64,000 bases of DNA from Thuidium tamariscinum (lineage: Eukaryota > Streptophyta > Bryopsida > Hypnales > Thuidiaceae), in assembly GCA_947034885.2 (NCBI GenBank), contig OX344758.2, positions 9,054,501 through 9,118,500 on the forward strand. The letters are read 5' to 3'. Positions 713 to 42,765 of this stretch are shown piece after piece; positions within the stretch are counted from its first letter, which is position 1; each line of letters opens with the position of its first letter. The notes under the pieces were generated by a model. The model was not told the origin of the DNA. It did not search any database and saw only the letters and a list, made by a program, of their open reading frames with translations. The position numbers and the translations under genes are program-made.

Positions 713-3308
713 ATGGAAGGCACTTGTGAATTTTGCCGTGGTGTCGCGACTGTGTACTGCCAGGCGGACTCGGCTCACCTCTGTCTTGCTTGCGACCGTC
801 ACGTCCACAGCGCCAACGCCCTGGCGCAACGCCATCCTCGCACGCTCCTCTGCCACGCCTGCGAAGCTGCAGTGCCCGTCGTGCCACTCTTCTCTGTGCC
901 AAGCTTGCGACCTGGAGAATCATGACGACCCTCGAGCTGCTGCACACAAGCGTCACAGCTTGGGATGCTTCACTGGGTGCCCCTCGGCCACGGCGCTTGC
1001 TGCTCTGTGGGCTTGCGAATATGGCCTTGGGGCGAACATGTCTGGCCCTGGGCCTCCTCCTCTCTTGATGGTAAACCAATCTACCAACTCACGTAAACCA
1101 ACGCAATCTAGAGATATGTTACCACATGGTGTTGAGAATTGATCTCATGCGAATCACGATTCTCTATTTAGCCTGCATCACTATACTACCCGCATTGGTT
1201 TATCCACATGAAGGTTGGTGATGCTATTTGCATCACTTCAAGCACTTGATATATGTGGGAGTGAGACTGGCTATAACCACCAATTCTGTTAGAATACAAT
1301 TTTACTGTGTATGAACCTTACATTGAATGACACAAAGTGAAGAACCTTAGACCACTATAAGTGTGAGTAGAAATTCCAATTACCAAGCAAAGATCAGCGG
1401 CCATAGACATTTAGTCAAGTCACGCTTGTTAATACCTCTTGAATGGTAAGATGGGTCAATTTAGAATCTGGGATAAGGTTCCTAACGGTTTTCGTATCCC
1501 CTAAATTAGGTGATGAAGATGAGCCTACTAATTGCAACTTTCACATTGAGATTTACGGCTTAATAAGTTGCAAGATTCACATCTTTGTGACACTGATTCC
1601 TGCTTCAGTGTTTGTTTCAGAAAGGAATTGCTACCAGCATTGTAGCTGTGGGCAGACAAGACGTGCAGGGGCATGAGAAGGCAGTGTTTCAACAACTAGA
1701 AATACTTCAAGCTCAGGATTCAGCACAAAGCACGAAAACTACGTCGCCGGTTCTTTCTGCAAAACCACAAACTGTGGCGAATGCCGGAGTGACTACACAA
1801 TGCTCTTGTCCTGTGGAACATAACCAGGATCCTGGGCTGGGTGAAGCACAAGTTGTCAAGTTGGAGCTTGATAGCGCGCTGAACCAGGGGAGCACCGACG
1901 TACTCTGGCTTAATAAGCCTATTACTCAAGCTAATCAGGTGCAACTTGCTATACTTCTTAGTATGATGTACTCTATCAAGTATTTTAATGCAACTACTTT
2001 TCATGTGTTATATAATTTAGTTTCATTTTGAAACTTGTTTGGTAGCTGATACAGTGGGTCTTGGCGACCAGTTGTGGGGGCAGGACGTAGGAATATGTGA
2101 CGATGAGGAGCGTGACTTGTGTTCTGGATTCAATATTACTGATATGAATCTATCTTACGAAAACTACGAGGACATCTTTGCTAGCACTCAAGGTCCCACT
2201 GCAGCAACTTTTGTTGGCTGTCCTATCGATCAGGATGAAACTGCTGCTGGTGACCCTGAAGGATCTCTCATCCAAAGCGTACCTGAGACTGAGCTTGTCA
2301 AACCTTCAGATGTACGTTTCGTCCACCTCAATTACCAACACTTGAGCTTGTATTTCTTCAAATACCGTGAACTATTCTCTCAGTATTTTTGTATCTTGTA
2401 ATGGCAGGTCTATCACATGGTATCCCTTGTGCGAAATAATCATTTGTTTCGGTTGTTGTTTGCAGGATGATGATCAGTCCAACTTCCGGGGTCAATTAGT
2501 GAGGTTGGAGTTGGATCCAGGCCCAGTCGAAGGAGAAGCTCATAGAGATGGGAAAACTGCTGCGGATGACATGGATATGACCAATATGGATGCGGCATTT
2601 GGATCGAAACCAGAAAGCTCAAGCTTATCTTTGATAGCTTCTGACCTCAAGGGGGAAAGTAGCGACTACGTAGAATGTAGCGCAGCATCAATCTTGCTTC
2701 ACACTCCTGGTAGAGACTCGTCTCTGGTCTCTGGTAGTTTCGACAGAGTAACCTTTGCCCATGCACGTGACTCAGCCGTGCTTCGCTACAAGGAGAAGAA
2801 GAAAATTCGCAGGTGCTTAAATTCCAGCGCAGTTTTATTACACTTTGTACACAAATTCCAGCACAGTTTTATTTGGTGTTCAATGGAGGGTGCTTTATGA
2901 CTAAGGTAGTTTGCGTTACTTGAAGCAAGTATCATATTTGCAGGTGTCATACTCTTGTGGGAAATTTGGGGAGGATAGACAATCAGGTTACCTGTAGTCT
3001 AAAATTAAAAAGAACACAATTTTTGGACATTTCTAGAATATCTTGTGAATTGTCAAAGTTGAAAATGGCTTTAATAACCTAAAATTTACTGATGTACAGT
3101 AGATTCTTTACCTGGATTTGTACCGGAATTGGTGGAGAATAGGAATAGGTCCCTATAACTTGGAGTATCAGCGACCTTAATCGAACGATGACTCACATTT
3201 TCTTTTTAAAACAGGTTTGGCAAGAAGATTCGTTATGAGTCTCGTAAAGCCCGAGCAGATATTCGCAAGAGGGTGAAGGGGAGGTTTGTGAAGATGGGTC
3301 AAGCGTAA
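713..3308 (+). CDS. CONSTANS-like (group III, COL9-type) B-box/CCT transcription factor, frame broken in B-box 2
   Basis: Nuclear zinc-finger regulator of the CONSTANS-like family. Seen: exon 1 (713-1070) encodes B-box 1 (CEFC...YC...[17 protein letters not shown]). It then changes from the frame starting at 713 to the next frame for the rest of B-box 2 ([20 protein letters not shown]) and the conserved GCFTGCPSA tail of group III proteins. The predicted exons are 1621-1960, 2046-2311, 2466-2812 and 3215-3308. A donor at 1939 is an alternative for exon 2. The CCT domain spans the last intron ([20 protein letters not shown], then [20 protein letters not shown]), is intact, and ends at TAA 3306-3308. 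Splice phases agree from exon 3 onward. Between C-H-A-C (ends 862) and the next Cys (873) there are 10 bases, where the family has 8 residues (24 bases). This points to a 14-base deletion, so translation from 713 would end early. Family call is firm; intactness is doubtful. Confidence 0.88.
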
Positions 3309-5430
3309 GATTATGACCCACAGATCCAGCCCAAGTGGAACCTGTAAAACCTCAGAGATTCAATTTACTTTTCAACTTTCAAATGCTACTCTTATCATTT
3401 GAGTCTCCCCCACCTCAACCCACTGTTCCTACTCGTTCTTGTGAATAATATTCCCGTCTTGGTGATTGGTGTTGAGTAGCAGTGATGAGAAGTAGGATCT
3501 AATTAGCACTTAAGCGGCCTCTATGATGCCGGTTGGTCTCTAGGCAGCTTCAGTGAGTTGGGGTTACAAGGTTAGAAGGTGGATGGTATTTCAATAGACG
3601 ATGTGGGCAAGGTATCATAAACTTGTTCGAACAATCGACAAACAAAAAGATTGAATTTTGAGAGATGTATTCGTTAGTATTAGAAAACTTGTACAGTTTG
3701 GGTGTCGCAAACGATCTGTAGAGAGAAGCCATACATCCATTTGACTGCTTCGTAGTCCAGATCGATCTGAGAAGGCTGACAGCACATCAGCTGTAAATAT
3801 ATTATGTGCGCGAAGTGCAATTTTTTGATCTTCTAACTTAAAATATGACCGGACTCGTTCTCTTTGATGTACAGGCTCTGTTATCCTTTTGTCTATAATT
3901 TGCGTCCCTGTCAATGGTTTTGTTATCAATTGTGTTATATGTATTACATTTGTATTTGGTAATGCTATATTTAGATCCTATAATTGAGGTGTCTTTTCAT
4001 GTGCAGAACTTCAGCTCATCCATGATGTGGGTATAAAGTGGCCTGGTGTGCTGTCAACTTGTGTAACGTTCGTCTGGAGCTGCCTCAGCACTGTTGGAAA
4101 AGGAATCCGGGGTCTTTTTCGTGCACAATCTTGAGCTCATCTCAGTTATGTGGTTCCAAAAGTTACAAGAAGTCAAGCGGTTGCCACTCACTGAACCCCG
4201 CGCGTGCTCTCTTTAGTGAGTGTCAGAAATTCAATCCTTTGTTATCGAATTTCCATCTATCACAATGAAGAAAGAGAAATTCTCACAACTAAAGAACATT
4301 GTGATCACCCTCAATGGTAACTGTTTTTTTTATTTTGACAAAATAGTAAGGGGTACATAATACACGGAGGGTGCATTAATTAAATAATAGTTATGAGAAC
4401 CCATTTACACCTTTAGAGTGATGACTGATAGGGAAAGTCATCTATAATACGGAGTCCTCCACAACTAATCCAGGAGCAGTTAAATTCGAATGAATTGCTA
4501 GTTCTTTGCGCAATACTTGTCTGTTGAGAGTCCAGACAGATTGACCTTGTGTACTTGGAACTTGGAGCTCACTTGTTGACGTACAGAATGCTAATTAACT
4601 AAATTCAATTGGATACTTTTCCATCTCCAACCAATAGTACAGTAATAATGCGGTGGTGCACATAGAATTTTGTTGGAAAAGGAACTCTGCATGGTTGTGT
4701 GTCTATTCAGGAAGATCGTTTCTCAGTCCTTGGTGATGATTTCTCTTAGTCTCTCTTTCTTTGGGCTTGTGTATGTACTGTACATTCCGATTCTTCAGAT
4801 GCGCAGCTTTGAACCGTTGAGCATTATGTGCAGGATTATGCTGCAATATGTAATATGTCACCAGCTCCTTGAATGGTTACAAAGCTCTGTTTTGATAACC
4901 TCGGAGGATGTTCAGTATTCCACTTTTAGGAAGCCTGGAGACATAAACCCTGGTCCTGCAATAGCCATAACATTATTCAGCAAATGGTTTTTAGGGGTGT
5001 CTTTGATAATCATTAACTAATGGTTTGTTGTTGATTTTGTTGATCTAACATGTTCTCTCCTTCCTACTTGGTCTAGGTTGCAGAACCTCCGAAAGACATT
5101 TTTTTCTAACCTTGGAAACTGGTTTGTGAGGCAAGAGCAGGCGTACCATGAAGTCGACCTTGACCGAGAAATTCTGATTTGCCAGCTTGAGAATTGCCCA
5201 TGTGCACTATGGTTTGGAGATCTCCATCACAGACGGCTCCGCTTAGCGTCTGTACAAGGTAAGTTCATGTACATGATCAGCATCACCATTTCCCTCTGAA
5301 ACAAGGCCTTAACTTTTTCTTAACCCTTAAAACGTCACGTCACAGTTTTTGGAAATAATCTTAAAAGTTGTTCCCGAGGGGGTATCTTTGAATGACGTTT
5401 TATGATGTTTAATGGTGAATGGTATTTTGA
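3309..5430. other. Spacer between convergent genes
   Basis: This holds the 3' ends of the CONSTANS-like gene (plus) and the bHLH gene (minus). Open frames of 60-116 codons occur at 3.6-3.9, 4.0-4.3 and 4.7-5.3 kb. None has a recognisable domain, consistent splicing or coding-like composition. I see no gene here. Confidence 0.5.
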
Positions 5431-28768: not shown

Positions 28769-29505
28769 TGATAATCATTTCAATGTTTTGATGTCAAATT
28801 TCACATGAAGAATTGGAAGTTCATACAACATATAGTAGAGGTACCCATTTTCAACACACACCATCAACAATAAATAGGGTACCCTATTTCCAAACAAGAT
28901 TGAAATGGATTTCTGTTTTCTCCTTGGAATGTGTGTTTTTGTACTTTTTCAAGGCTTGGACCAATAAGTTAATGACACATAAGTGAGCATAAATGTAGGA
29001 AGTAATTAGTGGAAAAGTATTCTTGAATGATGGAAATTGGATGACTCTAGATGTTGGTTATAGGTCAAGCCCAACTTTTACCTTTCAAAATTTATAGTAA
29101 TTTCAATTCAAGAGATAAAATTACCAAAATTTTTACAATCTTCATCATTTCTATCAATGTACTTCTAAAAATACTTGCTTTGCTTTGCAGTTGCCCAGAT
29201 CATGTCCAGATGTGCTAATTTTATCAGTTATGGGTACCTCTACTTTCAATAATCTCTTTGTCTTTTATTGTAATTAGTTGAGACCTCACTCAAGAGAGCA
29301 TTAGTGGAAATGAGGGTTGTGTAGAATCCCTAGAAAAATGATGACAAAAAGTCAAATTTGTCTTGTAGGTTTTCTTGTAGGTCATTTTTTCAATTTTGTA
29401 ATCCAAATTTTAAAGTGGTGCAGTCATTAAGGAAACAACACCTAATTGTGACTTGTTTGCAAAACCATCTAATCTAGATTCTTGCCTAAAATGTACAACA
29501 TATAT
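28769..29505. other. AT-rich spacer flanking the large transposon
   Basis: No features recognised. Its last bases (TAT, 29503-29505) form the left copy of the 3-bp target duplication. Confidence 0.5.
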
Positions 29506-29560
29506 CACTACAAGAGAAAGGGGTGTTTTAGATATGGTCCTAGTAGTATAGTCTTTTAAG
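29506..29560 (+). repeat. Left terminal inverted repeat of the large transposon
   Basis: 55 bp starting CACTACAAGAGAAAGGGG and ending TATAGTCTTTTAAG. It pairs with 42208-42263. Confidence 0.92.
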
Positions 29561-29664
29561 TCATGACCTATAAGGAGTCTTTTAAGTAAAATTTTACTAA
29601 AAATATATATATTCTCAATAAAATTTTACTTAAAAGATTCCTTATAGGTCATTACTTAAAAGAC
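29551..29664. repeat. Subterminal hairpin at the left end
   Basis: Two arms of about 47 bp (29551-29597 and 29618-29664) are nearly perfect inverses: GTCTTTTAAGTCATGACC... and ...GGTCATTACTTAAAAGAC. The loop is TATATA-rich. The outer part of the hairpin overlaps the inner end of the terminal repeat, so GTCTTTTAAG occurs in both orientations. Such a structure could bind transposase or form a cruciform; that is inference. Confidence 0.85.
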
Positions 29665-29981
29665 CGGGGTTGCTATATTGTGAGCTCAGGAGCGTGAGCC
29701 CAAGAACCCAAGAGCCTAGGAGCCTAGGAATTTCTCAACTTTTTTTGGAATTTTTAAAAGTGGGGGCCTAAGACCGTGGAAAAAGTTTTAGGGCGGTTTA
29801 CAAATAGGAAACAAATGAATTTAGAACACCAAAGTCCAACAAAGGGCATAGAAAGGGTTTAGAAGTAAGAAAATAGCGGATATACATTCAGTACAGTGAT
29901 GGCTGATAGAAGCAAGTAGATACCAACACAAAATATCATATACGAGTATAGTGGGTTCAAAATCAGAGAGTCTAGGGGGGT
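29665..29981. repeat. Left subterminal repeat region
   Basis: Short tandem words (GTGAGCTCAG, GCGTGAGCCC, AGAACCCA, AGAGCCTAGG, AGCCTAGG) are clustered at about 29680-29730. The right end has the counterparts in inverse form (near 42141-42200). CACTA-type elements typically carry such subterminal transposase-binding repeats. Confidence 0.6.
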
Positions 29982-32900
29982 CTAGGTACTACTAGAAGAC
30001 CCTGATGTAGAGCTCTCACCACTCATCGATAGCTCACTGTCTGACTCTATAGCAGACTCATCTACAAACAATGATACTCGTGGATCCGTTCTACGAGATC
30101 TAAAAGATGGTTGAGTATCTATGGTCTGAGAATGCGTGGCTACTGCCTCAGTATACACGGGTAACAAAAAAGGTTTAGGAGGGCTAGGGAAAAACGTCGG
30201 TTTAGCAAAGAATGGTCGGGATGTCTGCATCTTCATTTCGGCTGCCTGCCTACAAAATCATGACACCAAATGTCAGATACAAAACACTGGAAACTCACAT
30301 TCTCAAAGTATTGAAAAAAAAAAGAACTTACTTACTAAAGCGCGAAGTCTTCTGCAACTGACGAATTGGTACCATGTCCTCATCGTCAGCAATTGGGATA
30401 GGTGTAGAGCTTTGTGGAGTTGGCTCTGGAGCTGAAATGGGGCGTATGAGTGGAGCTAAAACTGCATCAAAAATGCTCTTGTCAGCCTCCAACGCTACAA
30501 TGTGGCGGCCAGTAGCTCGACAAGCGTAGATGCTTGCTCCTGCAAAAGCCCAATCACATTAAAAGAAATGAGACATGAAGTTCAAAGTTCAAATGCCAAA
30601 GACATGTGTTAAAACACTAAATCAAGTGATATACAGTAAAGAATAAAACCTGTAGAGGCTGTACAATCCATGATGATGTCACCAGGCGAGGTAGTTCCCT
30701 CAATGATCATTTGCATGAATGATCGTGCCTTTTCACGAGAACCACGCCATGGAATTGTACCATTCATTGCCAAATCCTCCTTCTCACAACAATTTAGAAC
30801 AAGATCATCTCTGCCAATGTCAAGGTCGATGGCCTGGTGCGCTGGAACATCATGAAATGTAAAGCGGGACTTCTCAGACTTCACATACAAGTTCATTTTG
30901 AAGCGCACAGTCTGCAAATCCAAGCCAGTACATTAGAATCAATGTAACATTTTCAAGATGAAAAAAAAAAAATCTATTTGAAAAGACCAGAAGAACATAC
31001 CGTGGAAGAACGGTCTAGTGGATTGGTAAGACGTAGTCTGTTCCACACCATCCACTCCATTTTCGATGTAAATCCATACTTCCAAGAGAAATCCAGAACA
31101 TAAGATCGAATCTCACGACTTAGAGAGTACATGAGAATAAGGCCACCACCATCATGGAGGTAGTTCTCTGCGAAATCAAAGATCGTCTGTAGCCACTCTT
31201 CTGAAAAGCTGTTCCAATTTGGAACAGAGGATGGCGGAATGGAGATGTTAGGGACAGGTAAGCCCTCAGGAACATCTACTATAATGAGATCAACTAAGGC
31301 CTGCTTAGTAACAACACTATCGAAGAAACGATCCTTGTCCAAAGCATGCTACAGATAAGAGAAAACAAGGGACACTTTTATTAATAATTTCATACAAGTT
31401 CAAGACCAAACACAAAGACTTTTTCCACACTCACCCTTATACTATAAAGAAACAACATGTTCATAGTTCAAAGCATTGACTACATAGAGAATTACCTTTT
31501 CCAGAAGGGAGAGTGAATGAAGCGGGGATAGGGCCATCATCTGAACCAAGCAAATTGGTGAGAGACTCATTTAAAATGCATTCATCCACATTGGCATCCA
31601 CAACCACAATCGGAGCCAAAGTCAGATTGCCCTGTTGCATCTGAGATTTTGTAAGCGAGAAGCCCGAGGAAGTGGGATTAGCGGCCCCATCACTTGTTGC
31701 ATGCTCCATTGGAGTAGCCTCTGCCTTGCGTTTCTTTCCCTTCTTCTTTTCCTTAGTGTCGCTCTTCGCTTTCTCAGACAATCTCTCTCTCTTTCGCACC
31801 TCGGTGTCTTCTAGCTTCTTCTTGGCCGCCTCCCACTGCTCCTCTTTCTTCTTATTCTCCAACTCCCGCTTCTTGATGGCCTTGTCACGAGCCTCACCTT
31901 CCAATCCAGAGAACTCATCAACCTCCGACACCACAACAACAGAATCCTTGATACTTTGGAAGAGCGCCAGTTCTTCAGGTGCTGTAAATCCCTTGCTACA
32001 ATCCAAGTACCACGCACCAAGTTGAAGATGGCCAACTGGCCAAAACTTCAATTGAGTGGGTGAAAACATACAATCAGATGATGTCGAGTCACGCCACGTG
32101 CGTAAGAATGGGGGCAAATCTGACTTGGAGATAGCTTGCTTCCCATATAATTCAAATGTAAAGTATCTGAAGAAGTAAAACACAACATAAGTGAATACCA
32201 AAGAAAAATACAAATCATGAAATCAACAACCATATTGTGCTCATACTAAATCTTGGTGAAGGTTAAAAAAAATGAGACATCAATGAGAACTCGTGATGGA
32301 AGCAATGAAAAATGATGCTTCTGTGATTATGAGTTATGTCAATATGTACATTACATTCCAAAGACATTGCCGACATTCCAAATTCCTAATAAAAACTAAG
32401 GTAAATAACCGAAGGTGCAAATCAAAATGAAGTGAAAGAACTACCTGTATAAGACCCGTCTCACGGCGAGAAGGGAGCCCTTATAGTCTTTAAAGGACTC
32501 AGATTTCTTGAATGCCTCAGCACCTTTGAAAACTCCGGGATATGAGTGCTCCCACAACTTCATCCTCCAAGACTCGATGTAGTCAGAAAGAGACATTGGC
32601 TCATCGGGCACGTCCATGTTAACTTGGATGTTGTCAGACTTGAGGATGGTGTCATACAATTCAAGAGCTGCATCTTCCAACTACACACAAATGGGAATCA
32701 TATCAGTACATCTAGGCAAATCATCCTTACTAAGCGTCTTAAATAAAAGCAAAAGAAATGAAATGCACATCCATACTTACCCTTGCAAACCATACCGCCT
32801 TCGATAAGAAAGATCCAATCTTATCGTCATTAGCTAGTCGGGGTGGAACTCGACGAGCTTCACGAGTAGGAGCGGATGAGTTTATCCACTTCAGCCACTT

Positions 32901-35615
32901 CACCTTGTGTCGTGGGCTAGCATTGGCAGTAGCAATAAGTTGAAGCTTGCCAAGCGTCAACTCCTGGACACTATACAAACTCTAGTGCCTCTCAATCTGC
33001 AAGCATAAAACAACACATAAGAAAGTAGAATTAAACATAAGGTAGCAAAAAAGATGACAAGAATTGTAAAGCTATAATGACGCACCTCTTTCAACCAGTC
33101 ATCTCCCAATGCTGGATTAGCAACGGACACAATCTTAGAAAGCTTTTTATAAAGCTTGTCTGTGGCATCCTTGGTAGCACTTCTCATAGCATTTGTAATA
33201 CCAGCACTACATACATCTTCTGGGGCAGTCTCCTCGCGATACTTGCAAACTGCAGCATCTGATGCAAGAGATATTTCTTGATGCCAAAACAAGAAAGAGT
33301 TCATGAGGAATTCGAATGTTATGACGAAATTAACAAATAAAACAAAATGTCCTTCGAAACTGAATTACATACCAATAAGACAAAGTTTACATTGTCAAAC
33401 CTGAAAAATGAATGTGGTGAATACATCCAGGGGCATCGTATACCAAGTCTTCCTTTGGGCATGGCCGCCGCAAAGTCTAACTTCCTCTAGGCTCAAGAGC
33501 TCCGCAAACTTCTCAATGGACATTGTTCCATACTTACGAACACGATAGAGTGTGTGGACAAGGTTTGTCTTCACAAATGAATTCTCCGTGTGCCTTCATA
33601 AACAAACACACTGTAAACATTCCAAATGGTCAAAAGATATCTCCATACAAACAAGTGGTAATTAGAAAAGAGAACTCACTTGTTCACATCGTGCATGACT
33701 TGCATTGCTGTCCCAAGCCTATCCTTTGTGTCCAAGACGATTGAGTCCACTCGAACGTGCCACTTAGTATCTCCACCGTAAAGCCTTTTTATATGCCGCA
33801 TCCAAGCAGCATACCTGTGGTTGCCATCGCAAATGTAGAACTTGGCATCGACCAAGTGCTGCAACTCAATGTGATTGCGGAGCTCCTTGTTGAATTCAGC
33901 ATTCACTGAATTCCAAATTGGTCCCCATTGGAGCTTCTCATCTTCAGAAAATACACCAACCTCACCCTCCTCATTTGAGATAGAAACATAAAATACTCTT
34001 GCTCCATCTTCGTACCCGTGAACGTACTTTGTCTCCAACTCGTCCACATCACAATCCAAGGTGGGCCGAACCATTGGCATGGGGACCATACGACATAAAG
34101 GAATTGCCATTCGGGAGAGATGATGATGAGAAATTCTCATACTAGCAATTGTTGATATTGAATCAACGTTCTGGGATCTTCAAATTTGGTCTTCATCCTC
34201 CGGGGTTGGGACCGGTAGTGAACTCGAAGGAACGCCTTGCCCATGAGAATCTCCTACTCCAGCCGCAGGATTCGGTATTGAAAGAGCAGGAACACTATGG
34301 TCCTCAGTATCTTCTACTCCCGCGTTGGTAGAGGACGGATCTAAGGATGTAACGCGAGTATCATTCACCTGATCATGCAATAGGAAAATAGATGGATGTT
34401 AGCACAATCAGAATAAAAATAACGGCCCCGGGGTGCGCGACTTGCTTGGGGTGGGATGTGATTGCCCACCCCAATCGGACAGACAGGAATCAAATTTTTT
34501 TTTAAAAACTAAGGCCGTGGCCCCCTCTACCTAGCTCTCAGTGGCGAGAGGGCTCGGGGCGCGCGACCATCTGGGGGTGGGGTGTGATTGTCCACCCCTC
34601 GCAAACAGACAGGAATCAAATTTTTTTTTAAAAAATGAGGCCGCGGCCCCCCTCAGCCGGGCTCTCGGTGGCGAGAGAGCCCGGGGCGCGCGACCTCCTT
34701 GGGGTGGGGTGTGATTGCCAACCCCTCGCACACAGACAGGAATCAAATTTTTTTTAAATGAAATCTGGCCGCGGTCCCCTCTGCCGGGCTCTCGGTGGCG
34801 AGAGGGCCCGAGGCGCGCGACCATCTGGGGGTGGGGTGTGATTGCCCACCCCTCGCAAACAGACAGGAATCAAATTTTTTTTTTTTAAATGAGGCCGTGG
34901 CCCCCCTCAGCCGGGCTCTCGGTGGCAAGAGAGCCCGGGGCGCGCAACCTCCTTGGGGTGGGGTGTGATTGCCCACCCCTCGCAAACAGACAGGAATCAA
35001 ATTTTTTTTTTTAAAATGAGGCTGCGGCCCCCCTCAGCCGGGCTCTCGACCTCCTTGGGGTGGGGTGTGATTGCCAACCCCTCGCACACAGACAGGAATC
35101 AAATTTTTTTTAAATGAAATCTGGCCGCGGTCCCCTCTGCCGGGCTCTCGGTGGCGAGAGGGCCCGAGGCGCGCGACCATCTGGGGGTGGGGTGTGATTG
35201 CCCACCCCTCGCAAACAGACAGGAATCAAATTTTTTTTTTAAAAATGAGGCCGTGGCCCCCCTCAGCCGGGCTCTCGGTGGCGAGAGAGCCCGGGGCGCG
35301 CGACCTCCTTGGGGTGGGGTGTGATTGCCCACCCCTTGCAAACAGACAGGAATCAAATTTTTTTTACATGAAATCTGGCCGCGGCCCCCTCTGCCGGGCT
35401 CTCGGTGGCGAGAGGGCCCGGGGCGCGCGACTATCTGGGGGTGGGGTGTGATTGCCCACCCCAAATGCAAGAAACAGATCACAAATTCCTTAGAACGAGA
35501 TTGAAATGCAAAGTTATAGGCCTCATTTTCATACCTTGAGATCAGGTGGATCATTCTCTTTGTGGCGCACGGCGGTGGCTTCCGTCCTCACAATTGCCCC
35601 GCTTCGAGTCTCCAT
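29982..35615 (-). CDS. ParB-like/DNA amino-methyltransferase-like fusion protein encoded by the transposon (damaged)
   Basis: Inferred exons: 35615-35535, 34368-33680, 33593-33401, 33304 (or about 33356)-33086, 32996-32781, 32680-32445, 32166-31496, 31348-31001, 30911-30650, 30539-30336 and 30241-29982. Total is about 1,120 residues. Seen: around residue 207 is FYICDGNHRYAAWMRHIK, a ParB-like DGNHR motif. Exon 32166-31496 has a Lys/Glu-rich coiled coil and a KKGKKRKAEA nuclear signal. Exon 31348-31001 has LIIVDVPEGLPV in the position of motif IV (usually DPPY). At the end of exon 30911-30650 and into 30539 is GDIIMDCTASTGAS, then TGRHIVALEAD, fitting SAM motif I and its following acidic strand. 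The order IV then I fits beta-type amino-methyltransferases. Damage: in-frame TGA at 34182-34180, TAG at 32984-32982, and a phase mismatch at the 31496/31348 junction. The join near 33401-33304 is unresolved. Known: ParB-methylase fusions occur in phages. Function here is inferred. Confidence 0.75.
34430..35465. repeat. GC-rich minisatellite (unit about 125 bp) in the intron before the ParB-like exon
   Basis: About nine units recur, each with CCGGGCTCTCGGTGGCGAGA, then GCGCGCGACC, GGGGTGGGGTGTGATTGCCC, ACAGACAGGAATCAAATTTT and a poly-T/A run. Two unit types alternate: one with ACCATCTGGGGGTGG and GAGAGGGCCC, the other with ACCTCCTTGGGGTGG and GAGAGAGCCC. This gives a higher-order period near 252 bp. 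One unit near 35043-35060 is truncated. The array fills almost all of the intron 34369-35534. Long open frames inside it are artefacts of the repeat. Confidence 0.9.
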
Positions 35616-35924
35616 TGATGCTACGCGAACAATTTGACACAAAGTGATTGTTTCATTAGAAGAATTCGCAAGAATACCAAATAAAAGAAATCCAAAAGGG
35701 AGGAATGCATTCACAAATGAGGATTTAGTATTTTGAGAAGTAAATTGATTGTGGGACTGCAAAGGTCTATACAATCAGAATTCACACCAAGAGGACAAAG
35801 AGATCACGCAAAGGAGATTCGAAATCTCGAGCAGGTTAGCAACAACCTCTCCAGAGGGTGAAAGTGCCACGGTGGGAGGGAGAGAGGCCTGTCGGGGGCC
35901 TGTGCGCGCCAGCCTCTGTCGAGG

Positions 35925-35933
35925 AAACCCTAA
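35925..35933 (-). promoter_or_regulatory. Telo-box-like motif (AAACCCTAA) near the methyltransferase gene 5' end
   Basis: AAACCCTAA is read on the plus strand and TTAGGGTTT on the gene strand, about 310 bp upstream of the chosen ATG. Plant 5' leaders and promoters of housekeeping genes often carry this motif. The surrounding 35775-35969 stretch is GC-rich, may be a leader exon, and has candidate splice acceptors. Suggestive only. Confidence 0.35.
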
Positions 35934-36184
35934 TCGGGGTCTTGCTGGGCTCAGGCCGACGAGGGTCATTTTTTATTATTTATTATTTTTTTATTTCAAA
36001 AAAATTAAATATTCTCTAATGTAAAATAAAAAATCATAGTATTTGAATTGATTTGATCATTGATGACACCTTTGTAATTGGAAATTTGGAAGATATATTG
36101 AATTGAATCGGTGTGCAATATAATGAAACGGACCTTGCATAGATGGAATACCATACATTGGGTTTGGTGAGTATAGGAACTTAC

Positions 36185-36478
36185 ATTGCATGGTTGAGTT
36201 CTGTTGACGTTCTTCTCTTCGATGTGCGCAAGGAATTTGGTGTCAATACTTGGGCGAGGTAGTCCACCATTCTCATTGACTCCATCAATACAAGTATCTT
36301 CCGGCATCCCATTCATATCTTGTCCCTCATTCGGTGATGACTGAGCAATTTCGAGATGTCTGCGTCGATTTTCACGAGACATTCTCAAGGACTTCAAACT
36401 ACTAAAGCATCGACTCATCCCCCTCTTTCTTTTCTTACCTACAGACTTCCTACTGCATTCGGGAATGGATTCAACCAT
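36185..36478 (-). CDS. Basic 98-codon exon or small gene upstream of the methyltransferase gene
   Basis: It opens at ATG 36478 and runs in frame to a good donor (AAT, then GTAAGT) at 36185-36184. The N-terminus is Lys/Arg-rich (KSVGKKRKRG), with a nuclear signal look, and the C-terminal half is acidic. I could not join it in frame to the exon at 35615. It may be a first exon spliced through an unseen exon, or a third small gene of the element. No family recognised. Confidence 0.4.
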
Positions 36479-37339
36479 AATTTGGCGTCTCTATAAAAAC
36501 TGAATTCACCCAAGTATTGAATAACTCGTGACTTATAGATGGATACATGTCTACTATAACGCTTACTTTCTATCTCGAAAATGAATTATTCCATAGCGTG
36601 AAATCATAATTTATATGTCTACAGGTTGATGTTGTCCGTTAGTATCTCTGGTTTCAATTTTTGAACTTCCAATTTCATTTGATCTTATATTTACGCTACA
36701 AGTGGATTTGGGTGTAGATTCGAAAGTCACCATTGTTATAGTATTTAACAACTGAATTTATTGGTCTTTCCTTTAAAAAAGGACTGTTGTTCATAAATTT
36801 CTGATTCTTAATTCCTGAGCATTTTGCAATGGATTAGTCGATCCATTATGATCATACTATATATATTTCAGTTACTTATATGTTGTACTTCTGAAATTCT
36901 AGGAGGCAAAATATTATCAGATTCTTGTCTGCATTTGTATTTACTATGGATTTACAAGATGTGATTTTGTCCTAGGTAAATCAAACTGTCTACACAGGTA
37001 CCTGTGTTCATTATGAAAAGTTAGGTTGCCTACTCAAAGTTGAGACTCAAAAAGATTAAGTGGACTGTAAGCACATCTTGGACTAACAAGCGCAATATAA
37101 CAAGATTTCGAAACATGATATTATTCCGTTCTTCAGTACTCATCAATGTTATTTTCATGGGAATTTGATCCACTTAATATCATTTTTACCTGATTATCTT
37201 ATTAGTGTTCCACAATTGAATTATTTTTAAAAATACTACAATTTCATGACTCCTAAACAAGACAGTCTCTGCTTAAAGTCATGATGCATCACAACGGAGA
37301 CAGCATTCACTTTTCATTTTCCAGTACTGTGTTCATGCG
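36479..37339. promoter_or_regulatory. Intergenic region between the divergent transposon genes
   Basis: About 860 bp of AT-rich DNA separate the start of the minus-strand exon at 36478 from the transposase ATG at 37340. It probably holds a bidirectional promoter. TATATATA occurs near 36859. No coding frame. Confidence 0.45.
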
Positions 37340-40300
37340 ATGGCCTCAATCAGAGTAAATGGGCACGAGGTCCCTCTTCTTCTTTGTCTTGACTGCTCTG
37401 GTCTAGCGGAAGTTTCAAGCCACCTGCTTCATGTGCGATATGGTTTTGTTGAGTCTTCTATCTATGTGGAGGAAGAGATACTTTCTGAATCTGGGACGCT
37501 TATCCACTCGATTCTTATCCGCAGAATTAGAAATGATGACGGACATTTTTGGAGCTTAGGTGCAGGTTGTTACAAGGCATATGGATTAGCATCAGATGTC
37601 ATGGTTGCTTCAACAGAAGTTTTGACGCCAGTGTCTGTGCCCGACGCAGCCTCTATTCCTACGTTGCGAGCCGTCAAGATAGAGCCCAATGGACTCTCGC
37701 CCTCTTCTCTTCATTACGGTCTTCCTTCATCAAAGGATGATGAAGGAAGCTTCTCTTGTCCTGTTGTTGAGTTGTCTAGTGATTCAGAGGAAGTCCCAAA
37801 GAAGTATAACAGCCCTGCGTCCGAATCAGAAACCGTTGGGACTTCTGTCCACCTTGGCACATCTCAATCCGTTGGTATGCGAGATAGTAGTGCTGGTAGT
37901 TCAGTATTTTCTCGGCCGCCGTTGTATCCACAAGAGCAAGGCAGTTCTAGTATTATAGAATCTTTGAAAAAGCTACGTAATATTTGAGGGTGCAGAAACG
38001 AGCTAGCTCAGATAGATTTTGATTCGATTGAGCGTAAGACAGTTCCATTTCTTCCTACATCATTTGACGGTGATATTGTCCTAGAATTGCCACCTTGTCG
38101 TTCATTACCCTTGTCCAGCTCTTCTAAGAGTATGACTGGCATGGACAAACGATACGATGGTCATACGTGGTGTCGCACGATGACCTCAAACATTCACAAC
38201 AACCTTGGACTAAAATTTAGGAAGTCTTCATGCGTTGGTCACCTTATTTGTACGAACACATCTTGCGATTACATATTTAGGTGTTCAAAGAAAAACGAGA
38301 CTGAGTGGTTGGGTAATACTAGTACTCCGTTTCTCGTAGGGTCAATACCACCACGAGATTCTACATTAGTGTGTAGAGTTTGTAAAGCTTCACCTACCTG
38401 TGTCAGTTTCTATGACGCTAGGATCTACTATGTCGTAGGATCATCTCATATGACCCGGGCTTGCATTCACCTAGGCAATCATAACCACCCGGTTCCAGAT
38501 GGTCTTTGTCGAGATTCAGTAGACACCATTTCTGGCCTTCTAGAAAAGGAGGTCGCAAAAACTCCTACAGCTAAAGCCTCGGCAATAGCTTTAGCTGCTA
38601 GTAAGGAATTCCTGGATATGTTTTTGGTTCATTCAAGTGATTCTCCGAAAGAAATGTTGAAGGGGCCTGCCTTGGATGCAGTGATGGACAAGTTCCAGGT
38701 CTTAAGTTCTCCAAACGTTCGGAACATCATTGCCTCCTTTCGAAGCAATGGCAGCGGGGGAGGTGAGATCGACCGCTTACTTGCAATGAAGAAGCAGGCC
38801 AAGATCGAGTTCATTCACGACAGTGTATTTCCCGGACAAGGACAAGAGAAAGTTTACCTCTTCAAGATGCTAGTGGATGGCCCTGGCAGTGGAGTCGATC
38901 TCGTGAAGCGCATGCAAGCAGGTGGGGATCTAGCAAATTGTTGGCTTATGTTTGACCATGTTAAGCGTGTCAAAGGATGGACCACAATCGCTTGCCATGT
39001 TTATGATTTGATTTATTGCAAGGTGATGACTATAGCGGTTTGCGACATGCAATCCAAGGACACGGAGGGCCAGGCCATTATGTGGAGATGCTTGAATCAA
39101 GTTATGGAGAAAAATGGCTTGGACAATCCCAACTTCAAAGGCTTCATGGCAGATAGTGCTCAAGCAAATTGGAATGCTGTTAGGATCGTTTATGGGTCCG
39201 GTGATGCATCCATCAAAATGGTTGATAGAGAACGCACATGTCTTTTCCACTGGGCAACTTCTTTGAAACAACACACAGAGCGACTCATCAAGAGAGATAT
39301 GCAAGCGCAACACGTGAGGCTTTGTAGAGATTACAAAGATGCAAAGACTCTAGACAAAGCGGAGAGCAAGTATCTTCAAATCAAGGCATGGTGGTATTCG
39401 TCCGGTGCAGCCTCTGAAGAGTCCCTGAGAGAGCTAGAGCTATGGTTAGCTTTTTGGCACTTCCGTTATCGCCAATGGGGTGGATTCATGTAGACAGTAA
39501 GTATTTTCATTTATTTATTTCTTCTTTTACAAAGTCCATGTTGTCTTCATCACAACCTTAGTTTCAAGATTTTCACATATGAAGTATTCCTACTTAGTGA
39601 ACTTGTCCCTCAGTTGCAACTGGGATCGTCCTCTGAATCCTATCTCGCCACCGAGAGGCCTTCACTGTAGGATTGCGGTTTCCCATTTCGTAGCCAATAT
39701 ACAACCTCTCATCTTATGGAAAGGGCCCGTGATCCCCTGGTGATTGATTGATGTCGCGGCCTTGGCCCCCACTTAAACCACAGGTCTAAATGAAAACACT
39801 TGTATGTCCTAACCGAATTTGGTTCTTTCTGTATTAATAGTCAAAAGTATCTTGGATATCTCAGGACAGTCCTTTCATGGTATTGGATGAATGATTGTCC
39901 CTTCTTTAAAATGGCTATTGAGGATTTGTTATATTATTCTCATTTGTCACTTTTATTAACATATCCTATCACTGTACTTCCAGAGTTTGTCAGCAGACGA
40001 AGAAGCGGATATTCCATCCTGCAACCTATCGGAAACAATTCACAACAAGTGGCTTCAAGCATCTGGGAAACGTGGTACTGACTTATATGTTGCCACTTGT
40101 GACGACTGGATTCGAGCATTTATGCAAATGACTAATTATCGCGTGTACCTGAATGGTGGACCTTCTGGAACTGGACCATCCCGACATGATCTGAAGTTAA
40201 AGCGAGCAGTAGCATCAATGGACGGGAAGAAGATTACTGATGCGTTGTGCAGTATGCCTGGTGTGGAGGAACTGTGTACACGTATACCCCATTTAGAAGG

Positions 40301-41359
40301 AGAGGAAGTCTTTGGCTCCACAAAGCGCAAGCATGATGAGCCTATTGGGGCTGAAGGTGATTCTCACCGCCCAGATAAGGTCAATTTCTCTCACCCTAGA
40401 GTACAATTGAAATCTGGCACTACTCTGAATGCATCTACAAATGAAGGAGATCCATTGTTTCCTCATGTCATGCACGTTTTGGAGACGGATTGTGACCCTT
40501 CACAGTGGCACATTGCTCTCGCATTTTTGTAAAGTCCAAGAGGAAGTGCCATGCCATTCAAGCGCAGATGGAGGTGAAGTGCAAGATGTCTATAGTTCGA
40601 GGTTCTAAAGTTGTAGCAGCACCAATGTATAAAGGCCAGAAACGCGAGTACAAAGGTATGAATGTTGAAACAGATGACTTCTGGTTTTGCCCAGACGACA
40701 CTCAAGGTTGCGTTATGGGACCTAGGAGGTCTCATGTCCTTAGTCGCCCTCAACTCCCTGAAATCTGGCCTGTGATGTTGGGTACAAGTCTAACTTCTCA
40801 TGAGATTATACTTTTTCAAGAAGTTGGGTTTCACCTTCAAGAGCGCCCATCACTGTCTCCGCGTCGCTTGTTCACATCTTCCAGACTTTTCGAGGTTTTG
40901 GAATGGAACTACTCAAAGGCAGCTCACTCCGACAAGCCTCCATGTATTCGAAATCGAAAAAACATTCGGAGGAATGACAAGGCACCCACTAATGATCATC
41001 AAAATCAATGGGAGAGTGCAAGAAATGTCACGGGCAATATCCTTGGAGTGAACATCCTCCCTTATCCAGGCCTTGGAGCTGTTATCACTTTACAGTCTGG
41101 TGTAGAACCTCATCACATGGTATATCGTGTTACTATTTCAAATTTCCCAGCTTGCACTTGCTTGTACTTCATTGGTATGTTGTCTGCATCCATCGGCAAG
41201 AGAGGGAAGTATGTTAACTGCAAACATTTATATTATATTTTCCGTTATTTGTGCAAGGTTGACCCAAAGAAGGACAAGTTCATTCATGCCCCTAGCTTTA
41301 GCATGGATGAGATTATGACACTACTAGAGAAAGCAGGAATGATAAAAATAAAGGTCTAA
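37340..41359 (+). pseudogene. DDE transposase with WRKY/GCM1-like finger and SWIM finger (decayed copy)
   Basis: Two exons: 37340-39496 and 39984-41359, phase 0, about 1,178 residues if read through. Seen in order: a Ser-rich N-terminal region; a finger with C-x4-C (GHLICTNTSCDYIF) and H-x-H (CIHLGNHNHPV); catalytic Asp in WLMFDHVKRVKGW; second Asp in FMADSAQANWNA; CLFHW matching the CxxH motif of MULE/CMC transposases; third acidic residue in NLSETIHNKW just after the intron; and a SWIM finger near the end (CTC...CKH, 41155-41226). It ends at TAA 41357-41359. Breaks: TGA at 37985-37987, TAG at 39491-39493 directly before the donor at 39497, and a one-base frame change near 40520-40530 at a T run, where the frame ending at 40532 passes to the one open from 40505. 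The role would be cutting and joining of the element's ends. Part order fits MULE better than canonical CACTA transposases. Confidence 0.85.
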
Positions 41360-42207
41360 TTCAGTAGTACTAGCATTCAACACATCTATACCGGATTATT
41401 AGATAACTCTACGCCATCCATGATTGTATGTAGCACCCGCTACACCTAATGAGGATGACTATTTGTTCCTCATGAAGTCTTCGTAGGCCTTCATTTGTAC
41501 TGAATCTTCAAGGAATATATCTTTTTCTACAGTGACTACCCTTATTTTTCTAAAACTCTTATGCCATTTTGTTGTAACCTCCTAACCCTAATCCTTGACC
41601 TCAAATTGTATGATAAATTTATAATGAATTGTTTTGAACCACAGATTACTGTATGAATTATGTACTTGCTTTCAAATTGCTCAAGAACCCTAAACCAATA
41701 TATGTCAATCTCCTATTCTCCGTATTTTATGCCATATGAATCCAACAATTTATGATTAGTTAATGAGGCCATCAACTTGAAATCGAGGGTCACTCTTTCA
41801 TAGGAGCAAAAACAGTGCTTGGGAGCTTTTTTAAATCCAGTCCAATATTCAATCAACGTACTGTTTGACATTGCAATCGCCCCACATTCTTCGTCTTCAA
41901 TTCTAAATCATAGGAAAAAGTCTTAAGTAAAAGGTGTATATGAAGTAGTATATGTTAATAAACCCTAAACCCATGGTTCAAAGTCCACAGTTATAGGTCC
42001 ACGGTTATAGGGTCTTTGTCACACCCTAAACCAGTGAACTGGGGGTACATGTATACTACTCGTGTCACCTTAGATCAGAAGTCCATTGAATTTTTTTTGG
42101 AATATTGAAAAAAATTACAATTTACTTCAACTAAATATCTAGGCTCGCATAATGTACGCTCACAGCTCTCAGGCTCACGCTTTCAGGCTCACAATTTAGC
42201 GTCGTTG
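41360..42207. other. Right-end region of the transposon, downstream of the transposase
   Basis: Non-coding. It holds the transposase 3' UTR and, at 42141-42200, subterminal words (TAGGCTCGC, GCTCACAG, AGGCTCACGC, AGGCTCACAA) inverse to those at the left end. TAGCGTCGTTGC lies just inside the terminal repeat. Confidence 0.6.
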
Positions 42208-42263
42208 CTTAAAAGACTATATTACTAGGACTATACTTTCAAACACCCCTTTCTCTTATAGTG
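42208..42263 (-). repeat. Right terminal inverted repeat of the large transposon
   Basis: 56 bp, read on the minus strand as CACTATAAGAGAAAGGGGTG and onward to CTTTTAAG. It pairs with 29506-29560 and is followed by TAT (42264-42266), the right target-duplication copy. Confidence 0.92.
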
Positions 42264-42765
42264 TATACATTAAAAGTCTTAAGATTGATTTTAGGTACTA
42301 CTGTTTTCAATACATTGAAAAATTCATAGTTTATTTAAAAAAATCTAAAAAAGGCATTCTATAAAGATCTTCAATCTTCTTTCAGCTATCTTCAAGATCC
42401 AACAAAACTCTTACAATTCCAAAATAGGAACCATATTCAAAATTTTATTTGTATGCATTTAGATGTTGTTACCTTATTACTTTCCAAATGTTGCAATATT
42501 GTGATTTAGATTATTAGTAAAGATGACACTACTTTATCAAAGAAAAATTACTTAAAAATAATATAATCGATTTGATATTCTATTGAACTATATTAGTTTC
42601 TAACCACAAATAAAAATTCTATAGCAATACCATTTTTGTGTCCACACTAATAAGACAATTTGTGTAATTTAAACACAAATGTAATGAATCTGGAAAGATG
42701 TAAGTAGAAGAAGATACCATTAAATTGTTATAAAAATATGTTACAAAAATATTACATTGGAATGG
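42264..42765. other. AT-rich spacer
   Basis: Flank of the large transposon. Nothing else recognised. Confidence 0.4.

Follow-up and report, generated by a model that had tools for sequence, protein, structure and literature searches.

The 64,000-nucleotide stretch of the moss Thuidium tamariscinum analysed here (contig OX344758.2, positions 9,054,501 to 9,118,500 of the forward strand; hereafter the window) carries a mobile element of 12,543 bp with two divergent multi-exon genes, one for a transposase and one for a protein combining a weakly ParB/DndB-like half with a methyltransferase-like domain. The genome gives 6 matches to the LEAFY profile PF01698 where 14 control genomes give none; as LEAFY marks land plants and their close kin, this indicates an origin in that group. 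An earlier note, made from the letters of the window, had described the locus as a CACTA-ended transposon of the CMC superfamily in which a DNA modifier travels with the transposase. Both genes are real, and so are the inverted CACTA ends and the 3-bp TAT duplication outside them (29503-29505 and 42264-42266). These ends, however, do not bound the two-gene element. They are the two halves of a miniature inverted-repeat transposable element (MITE) which the larger element has interrupted.

When the outer pieces are joined with one copy of CTTAAAAGAC left out, a near-palindrome of 205 bp (159 + 46 bp, with TAT on both sides) is restored, and it aligns with two other copies in the genome, L002 over the full length and the shorter L003. 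A search of the genome (363 Mb in 19 contigs) with the 65-bp MITE end, in which 40 of 330 first-look candidates were scored, gave 59 scored matches, 38 of them forming 19 inverted pairs with spans of about 170-205 bp. A family of near-palindromic CACTA MITEs of roughly this size is spread genome-wide, and the copies examined (e.g. L002 and L003) have apparent 3-bp duplications. The large element is inserted into one such small and unrelated MITE, having duplicated CTTAAAAGAC.

The boundaries of the element were confirmed in other copies. A copy on contig C7 is colinear with the window between about 29663 and 42207 (identity about 94%), and one on contig C6 is colinear up to 42207 (about 87% over the compared part). 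Both ends were read in eight copies: that of the window and those at C7:20.44, C6:24.68, C6:27.98, C1:39.43, C1:47.44, C6:15.17 and C2:0.80 Mb. All eight start with CGGGGTTGCTATATTG and end with CACAATTTAGCGTCGTTG, so that their own termini are CGGGG and GTTG, not CACTA; element size is 12.5-13 kb. Where the earlier note expected 3-bp duplications at full-length copies, seven of the eight are flanked by perfect duplications of 9-10 bp (CTTAAAAGAC, ATCTTGCAC, TTCTTACAA, AGGCTAAATA, GAGTGCGTG, ACTCCATGGC and CTTCAATAG) and the eighth, at C6:15.17 Mb, by an imperfect one (ACCCCAAGG versus ACTCAAGG). The subterminal inverted repeats are imperfect as well (34 nt, 76% complementary, 29672-29705 and 42167-42200).

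The CACTA ends and the TAT duplication would be accounted for if the element, as first proposed, were itself of the CACTA/CMC kind and had captured a methyltransferase. This is excluded because the element's own ends are not CACTA and its duplications are not 3 bp long: the boundaries, the rejoined 205-bp MITE with its further copies in the genome, and the ends of the seven other copies, none of which is terminated by the CACTA pieces, leave hardly any probability to it. The earlier note had itself named ends that never flank these genes elsewhere as an observation against its proposal, and for the CACTA ends this holds in all seven other copies with both ends read. The case shows that a nested insertion can mimic a CACTA element with cargo.

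Table 1. Features of the nested locus (positions in the window)
Feature	Position	Strand	Remarks
MITE left part, 159 bp	29506..29664	+	interrupted by the large element; last 10 bp are CTTAAAAGAC (29655-29664)
Mobile element, 12,543 bp	29665..42207		termini CGGGGTTGC...GTCGTTG; flanked by direct repeat CTTAAAAGAC
Second gene, beta-class N6/N4-methyltransferase-like domain, 3 exons	30331..31348	-	DVPEG in place of DPPY, DCTASTG in place of DPFxGSG
Second gene, linker exon	31512..32165	-	K/E-rich
Second gene, N-terminal half, 5 exons	32444..34182	-	DGNHR motif; weakly ParB/DndB-like
Array of ~127-bp GC-rich units	34427..35462		in predicted second-gene intron; 7 CTCTCG-N4-CGAGAG palindromes (at most 1 mismatch)
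Second gene, probable 5' exon	35535..35615	-	METRSGAIV...
Basic exon, own gene or first exon of second gene	36185..36478	-	upstream of second gene; kept in C7 and C6 copies, weaker constraint
Transposase exon 1	37340..39490	+	one in-frame stop in window copy, open in several others
Further CTCTCG-N4-CGAGAG palindrome	39642..39657		in predicted transposase intron
Transposase exon 2	39984..40529	+	
Transposase C-terminal part	40532..41356	+	weak SWIM zinc-finger match, PF04434 E 0.09, below cut-off
Second CTTAAAAGAC copy	42208..42217	+	10-bp target duplication made by the large element
MITE right part, 46 bp	42218..42263	+	followed by outer TAT 42264-42266

Next, we examined whether the two genes occur together across the genome. 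Of the 86 transposases scored, 67 have a divergently oriented methyltransferase exon on the other strand no more than 30 kb away; in 200 random placements the mean was 0.8 and the maximum 4. Only one combination within that distance is non-divergent. Transposase and methyltransferase-like gene therefore travel together, in the order seen in the window, in many copies, and the two-component mobile system of the earlier note is borne out. Since the searches scored part of the candidates (86 of 964 and, for a second list, 86 of 992 for the transposase; 150 of 567 for the methyltransferase exon), totals are lower bounds: when both lists are combined, pairing extends to 72 of the 161 transposases and to 72 of the 150 exons, with seven non-divergent combinations within 30 kb.

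Broken down by transposase identity, pairing was found for 38 of 39 at 91% or more, 5 of 6 at 78-83%, 3 of 8 at 67-69%, 21 of 22 at 64-66% and none of 11 at 62-63%. Copies with only one of the genes, which the earlier note had named as evidence against its proposal, do occur but are a minority: one of the 39 closest transposases is without a scored exon, and 8 of 46 exons at 77% or more are without a scored transposase. In one of the 38 closest pairs the exon has 58% identity only. The empty 62-63% group probably reflects a limit of detection. At C1:15.91 Mb, a locus of this group, the six N-terminal exons of the second gene lie at the expected place with 34-54% identity, the methyltransferase exons falling beyond the stretch read, and near C7:28.39 Mb a transposase of 63% identity lies about 9 kb from an exon of 40% identity. 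At C11:17.30 Mb, a locus of the 66% lineage, each of the nine exon queries for the second gene found a match, and the matches are in order. In the 47-53% group, 21 methyltransferase exons are without any scored transposase partner; at one of them, C4:31.5 Mb, the 7 kb read contain no transposase.

The element has moved recently. Over 2,203 bp of the transposase region, five copies at separate places on three contigs show only 2-5 differences, and each retains an open frame of 770 amino acids. The window copy itself is decayed, with an in-frame stop in the transposase (37985-37987), an apparent frameshift near 40,530 and one or more stops in the second gene. The C7 and C6 copies were compared by the ratio of nonsynonymous to synonymous substitution rates (dN/dS; all values are point estimates without a significance test). 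The transposase has a ratio of 0.15, the ParB-like part 0.08, the methyltransferase part 0.20 and the upstream basic exon 0.40. Selection on both genes is supported by these values, and since they are below 1 they suggest that the second protein has been kept by selection during transposition. In the C6 copy the second gene is open across the exons read, which do not cover the final ones. An old host gene with coincidental ends, which the earlier note had considered, is ruled out by pairing and selection, because the methyltransferase-like gene moves with the element. Between lineages the second protein diverges faster than its partner, exon identity being 37-46% where that of the transposase is 64-66%.

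The methyltransferase half of the second protein is homologous to known DNA methyltransferases. In a profile comparison (A3) most of the catalytic domain can be aligned with DpnA (E 7e-6) and CcrM (E 1.4e-5), the motifs following in the order of the beta class; matches to PF01555 reach a best E of 1e-4 in three of four members and lie below the cut-off where bit scores are given. The catalytic motif of the beta class is [DNS]PP[YFW], and DPPY is needed for amino-methylation. This motif is found in none of 21 loci (the window and 20 diverged ones). The window has DVPEG; of the diverged loci, 16 have DxPE (DVPEG, DMPEG, DCPEN), one DVLEG and three EYPDG or EYPNG. The exon with the S-adenosylmethionine (SAM) site aligned in 19 diverged loci, and 18 of these keep D-x-T-A at the position of the site. 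Such conservation of an altered motif IV suggests a role that is retained but non-canonical.

These data bear directly on the idea of the earlier note that an active DNA methyltransferase marks its own element with N6-methyladenine or N4-methylcytosine, and thereby evades silencing or times excision. The DpnA and CcrM matches with their beta-class order, the conserved D-x-T-A and the dN/dS of the methyltransferase part would all fit such an enzyme. The label of DNA modifier is weakened by the canonical DPPY being absent from all 21 loci, for which reason methylation by the second protein is doubtful and the idea appears unlikely to us. More likely, the methyltransferase fold would serve binding or scaffolding than canonical N6/N4 methylation.

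The non-coding DNA of the element contains a repeated palindrome, CTCTCG-N4-CGAGAG. With at most one mismatch, the window copy has 8 such sites, the C6 copy 22 and the 66% lineage 12, whereas the 51 kb of the window outside the element have none. With up to two mismatches and a spacer of 3-5 bases, five shuffles gave 0-3 in the window copy, 0-4 in the C6 copy and 0-1 in the 66% lineage; outside the element, the window gave 1. In the window, C7 and C6 copies an array of 127-bp units is present; comparison by eye of units from the window and C6 shows the palindrome and a second core in common, while much else differs. In the 66% lineage, eight sites lie upstream of the second gene, where Tandem Repeats Finder (TRF) detects no array, three lie in the transposase intron and one, at position 616, lies past the end of the second gene. 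The array does not seem to be needed in every lineage: TRF finds none of this kind in the stretches read of S66, S40 and Y62. S66 retains the palindrome, which is missing from S40, Y62 and L082.

Location of these sites also helps to judge another possibility, namely that the second protein belongs to the transposition machinery, nicking strands or drawing the ends together, as bacterial ParB-methylase fusions can nick DNA. Its fixed association with the transposase would be expected of such a component. The ParB assignment is weak, however, and most of the repeated sites lie centrally in the element, within predicted introns; the single site of the 66% lineage beyond the second gene belongs to a copy whose ends were not found. 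We consider a role in the machinery improbable, to about the same degree as active methylation.

As to the transposase, exon 1 presumably comprises a zinc-binding-like and a DDE-like region, assigned by eye, and we take the catalytic E to lie in exon 2, within NLSETIHNKWL. A search with the KDZ profile PF18758 gave no match in the genome, and the control search was equally without a match. The Pfam profile of Mutator-like elements (MULEs), PF10551, matches 70 places in the genome, and each of these is more than 5 kb away from any of the 161 transposases listed. Target duplications of MULEs are 8-11 bp long (PMC6446971), and those of the element, at 9-10 bp, lie in that range. Because its duplications fit, we call the element Mutator-like in behaviour, and not by its transposase sequence.

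Taken as a whole, the observations show a two-gene Mutator-like element that landed in a MITE with CACTA ends. The second protein of the element is best explained, in our estimate with slightly better than an even chance, as a DNA-binding accessory resembling VANC of the Arabidopsis VANDAL elements. The protein would be self-encoded and sequence-specific, and would bind the palindromic sites in the element's non-coding DNA, that is, the array in its own intron and the sites in the transposase intron. Once bound, it might keep the element expressed, as VANC does for VANDAL, and so support expression or movement of its own family.

Several points weigh against this explanation. A transposase of 717 residues has no match to PF10551 at E up to 10, and the 12 aligned transposases are likewise without a MULE match, hitting two other families only weakly (best E 0.14); alignment A1 excludes L076 because it contains a stop. 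Comparison with MULEs of the same genome by hhalign gave a probability of 0.4%, within the range of shuffled controls, both profiles being narrow. The ParB-likeness asserted by the earlier note is weakly supported around DGNHR (PHROG 1033, E 0.014; DUF1015, E 0.0098; DndB, E 0.043). Sites within one array are copies of each other, so those of the window, C7 and C6 are non-independent and the 66% lineage alone is independent; the palindrome's absence from the three loci of other lineages named above makes it lineage-specific at best. Between the window and C7 copies dN/dS is weaker (transposase 0.42, ParB-like part 0.28, methyltransferase part 0.44, basic exon 0.47), the methyltransferase estimate for C7 and C6 is based on 204 codons with 22 changes, and stops are present in the second gene of the window copy, of the C7 copy and of the 66%-lineage copy.

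It is also possible, though we hold it to be somewhat short of an even chance, that the element represents a plant transposon superfamily outside current profiles. Here the ParB-like and methyltransferase-like protein would be a long-term, near-obligatory partner of the transposase which reads internal palindromes, its fold being a non-canonical modifier or a DNA reader that has lost its activity.

The proposed VANC-like accessory has its closest parallel in VANDAL. Like the moss element, VANDAL is a plant element with 9-bp duplications that encodes a transposase (VANA) and an extra gene (VANC). In both, the accessory protein is less conserved than the transposase, and repeated motifs, some of them intronic, vary between related elements (PMC5735166, PMC6446971); the VANC targets that show this variation are reported to be arranged in tandem (PMC5735166). 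In domain content the two differ, VANC having DUF1985/DUF287 (PMC5735166) and the moss protein ParB-like and methyltransferase-like parts. VANC counteracts silencing by binding repeated motifs and removing methylation from the element; two lineages of the moss element have repeated palindromes, and its second protein may act likewise. MuDR and other two-gene MULEs share the duplication length, a second gene, imperfect terminal repeats and, in the moss transposase, the weak SWIM match, but differ in that this transposase has no PF10551 match.

Enzyme families for DNA modification also accompany transposases in the fungal TET/JBP DNA transposons (KDZ, EnSpm, hAT and others; PMC12730594), although those are dioxygenases in fungi and ours is a methyltransferase-like protein in a plant. 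The bacterial ParB-methylase fusion Bce_0392 likewise unites these two types of domain (PMC5512222), yet pattern scans of prokaryote genomes and of viral contigs, with two peptide patterns each, gave no relative of the moss protein. A tblastn search of phages returned nine records, with a best E of 1e-3 and query coverage of 22-73%. In the literature searched we found no plant transposon with this protein pair; Repbase and most subscription papers lay outside that scope, so this does not prove absence.

In this high-copy and recently active plant system a transposon maintains a methyltransferase-like protein of its own. With such a system available, the use of such proteins by transposons against plant silencing becomes directly testable. 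It may also add to VANC a second, independently arisen example of a motif-reading accessory encoded by the element itself.

Some further observations were made at diverged loci. Upstream of the second gene, two diverged lineages share an acidic open frame (LVSFDDVM..AE.AVDAF; L065, reverse strand 3317-3799, and L067, 3393-3890, minus strand), which may be an additional exon or a third gene. Upstream of a methyltransferase locus of the 50% group, L081 (G000:C4:31526500-31533500) contains on the plus strand, at 2938-4638, an open frame of 567 amino acids, protein-kinase-like by eye and possibly cargo of a further element. Contig C11 (17.5 Mb) carries 9 of 22 transposases with 64-66% identity and 4 of 11 with 62-63%, many for its size; at a guess, it could be a sex chromosome.
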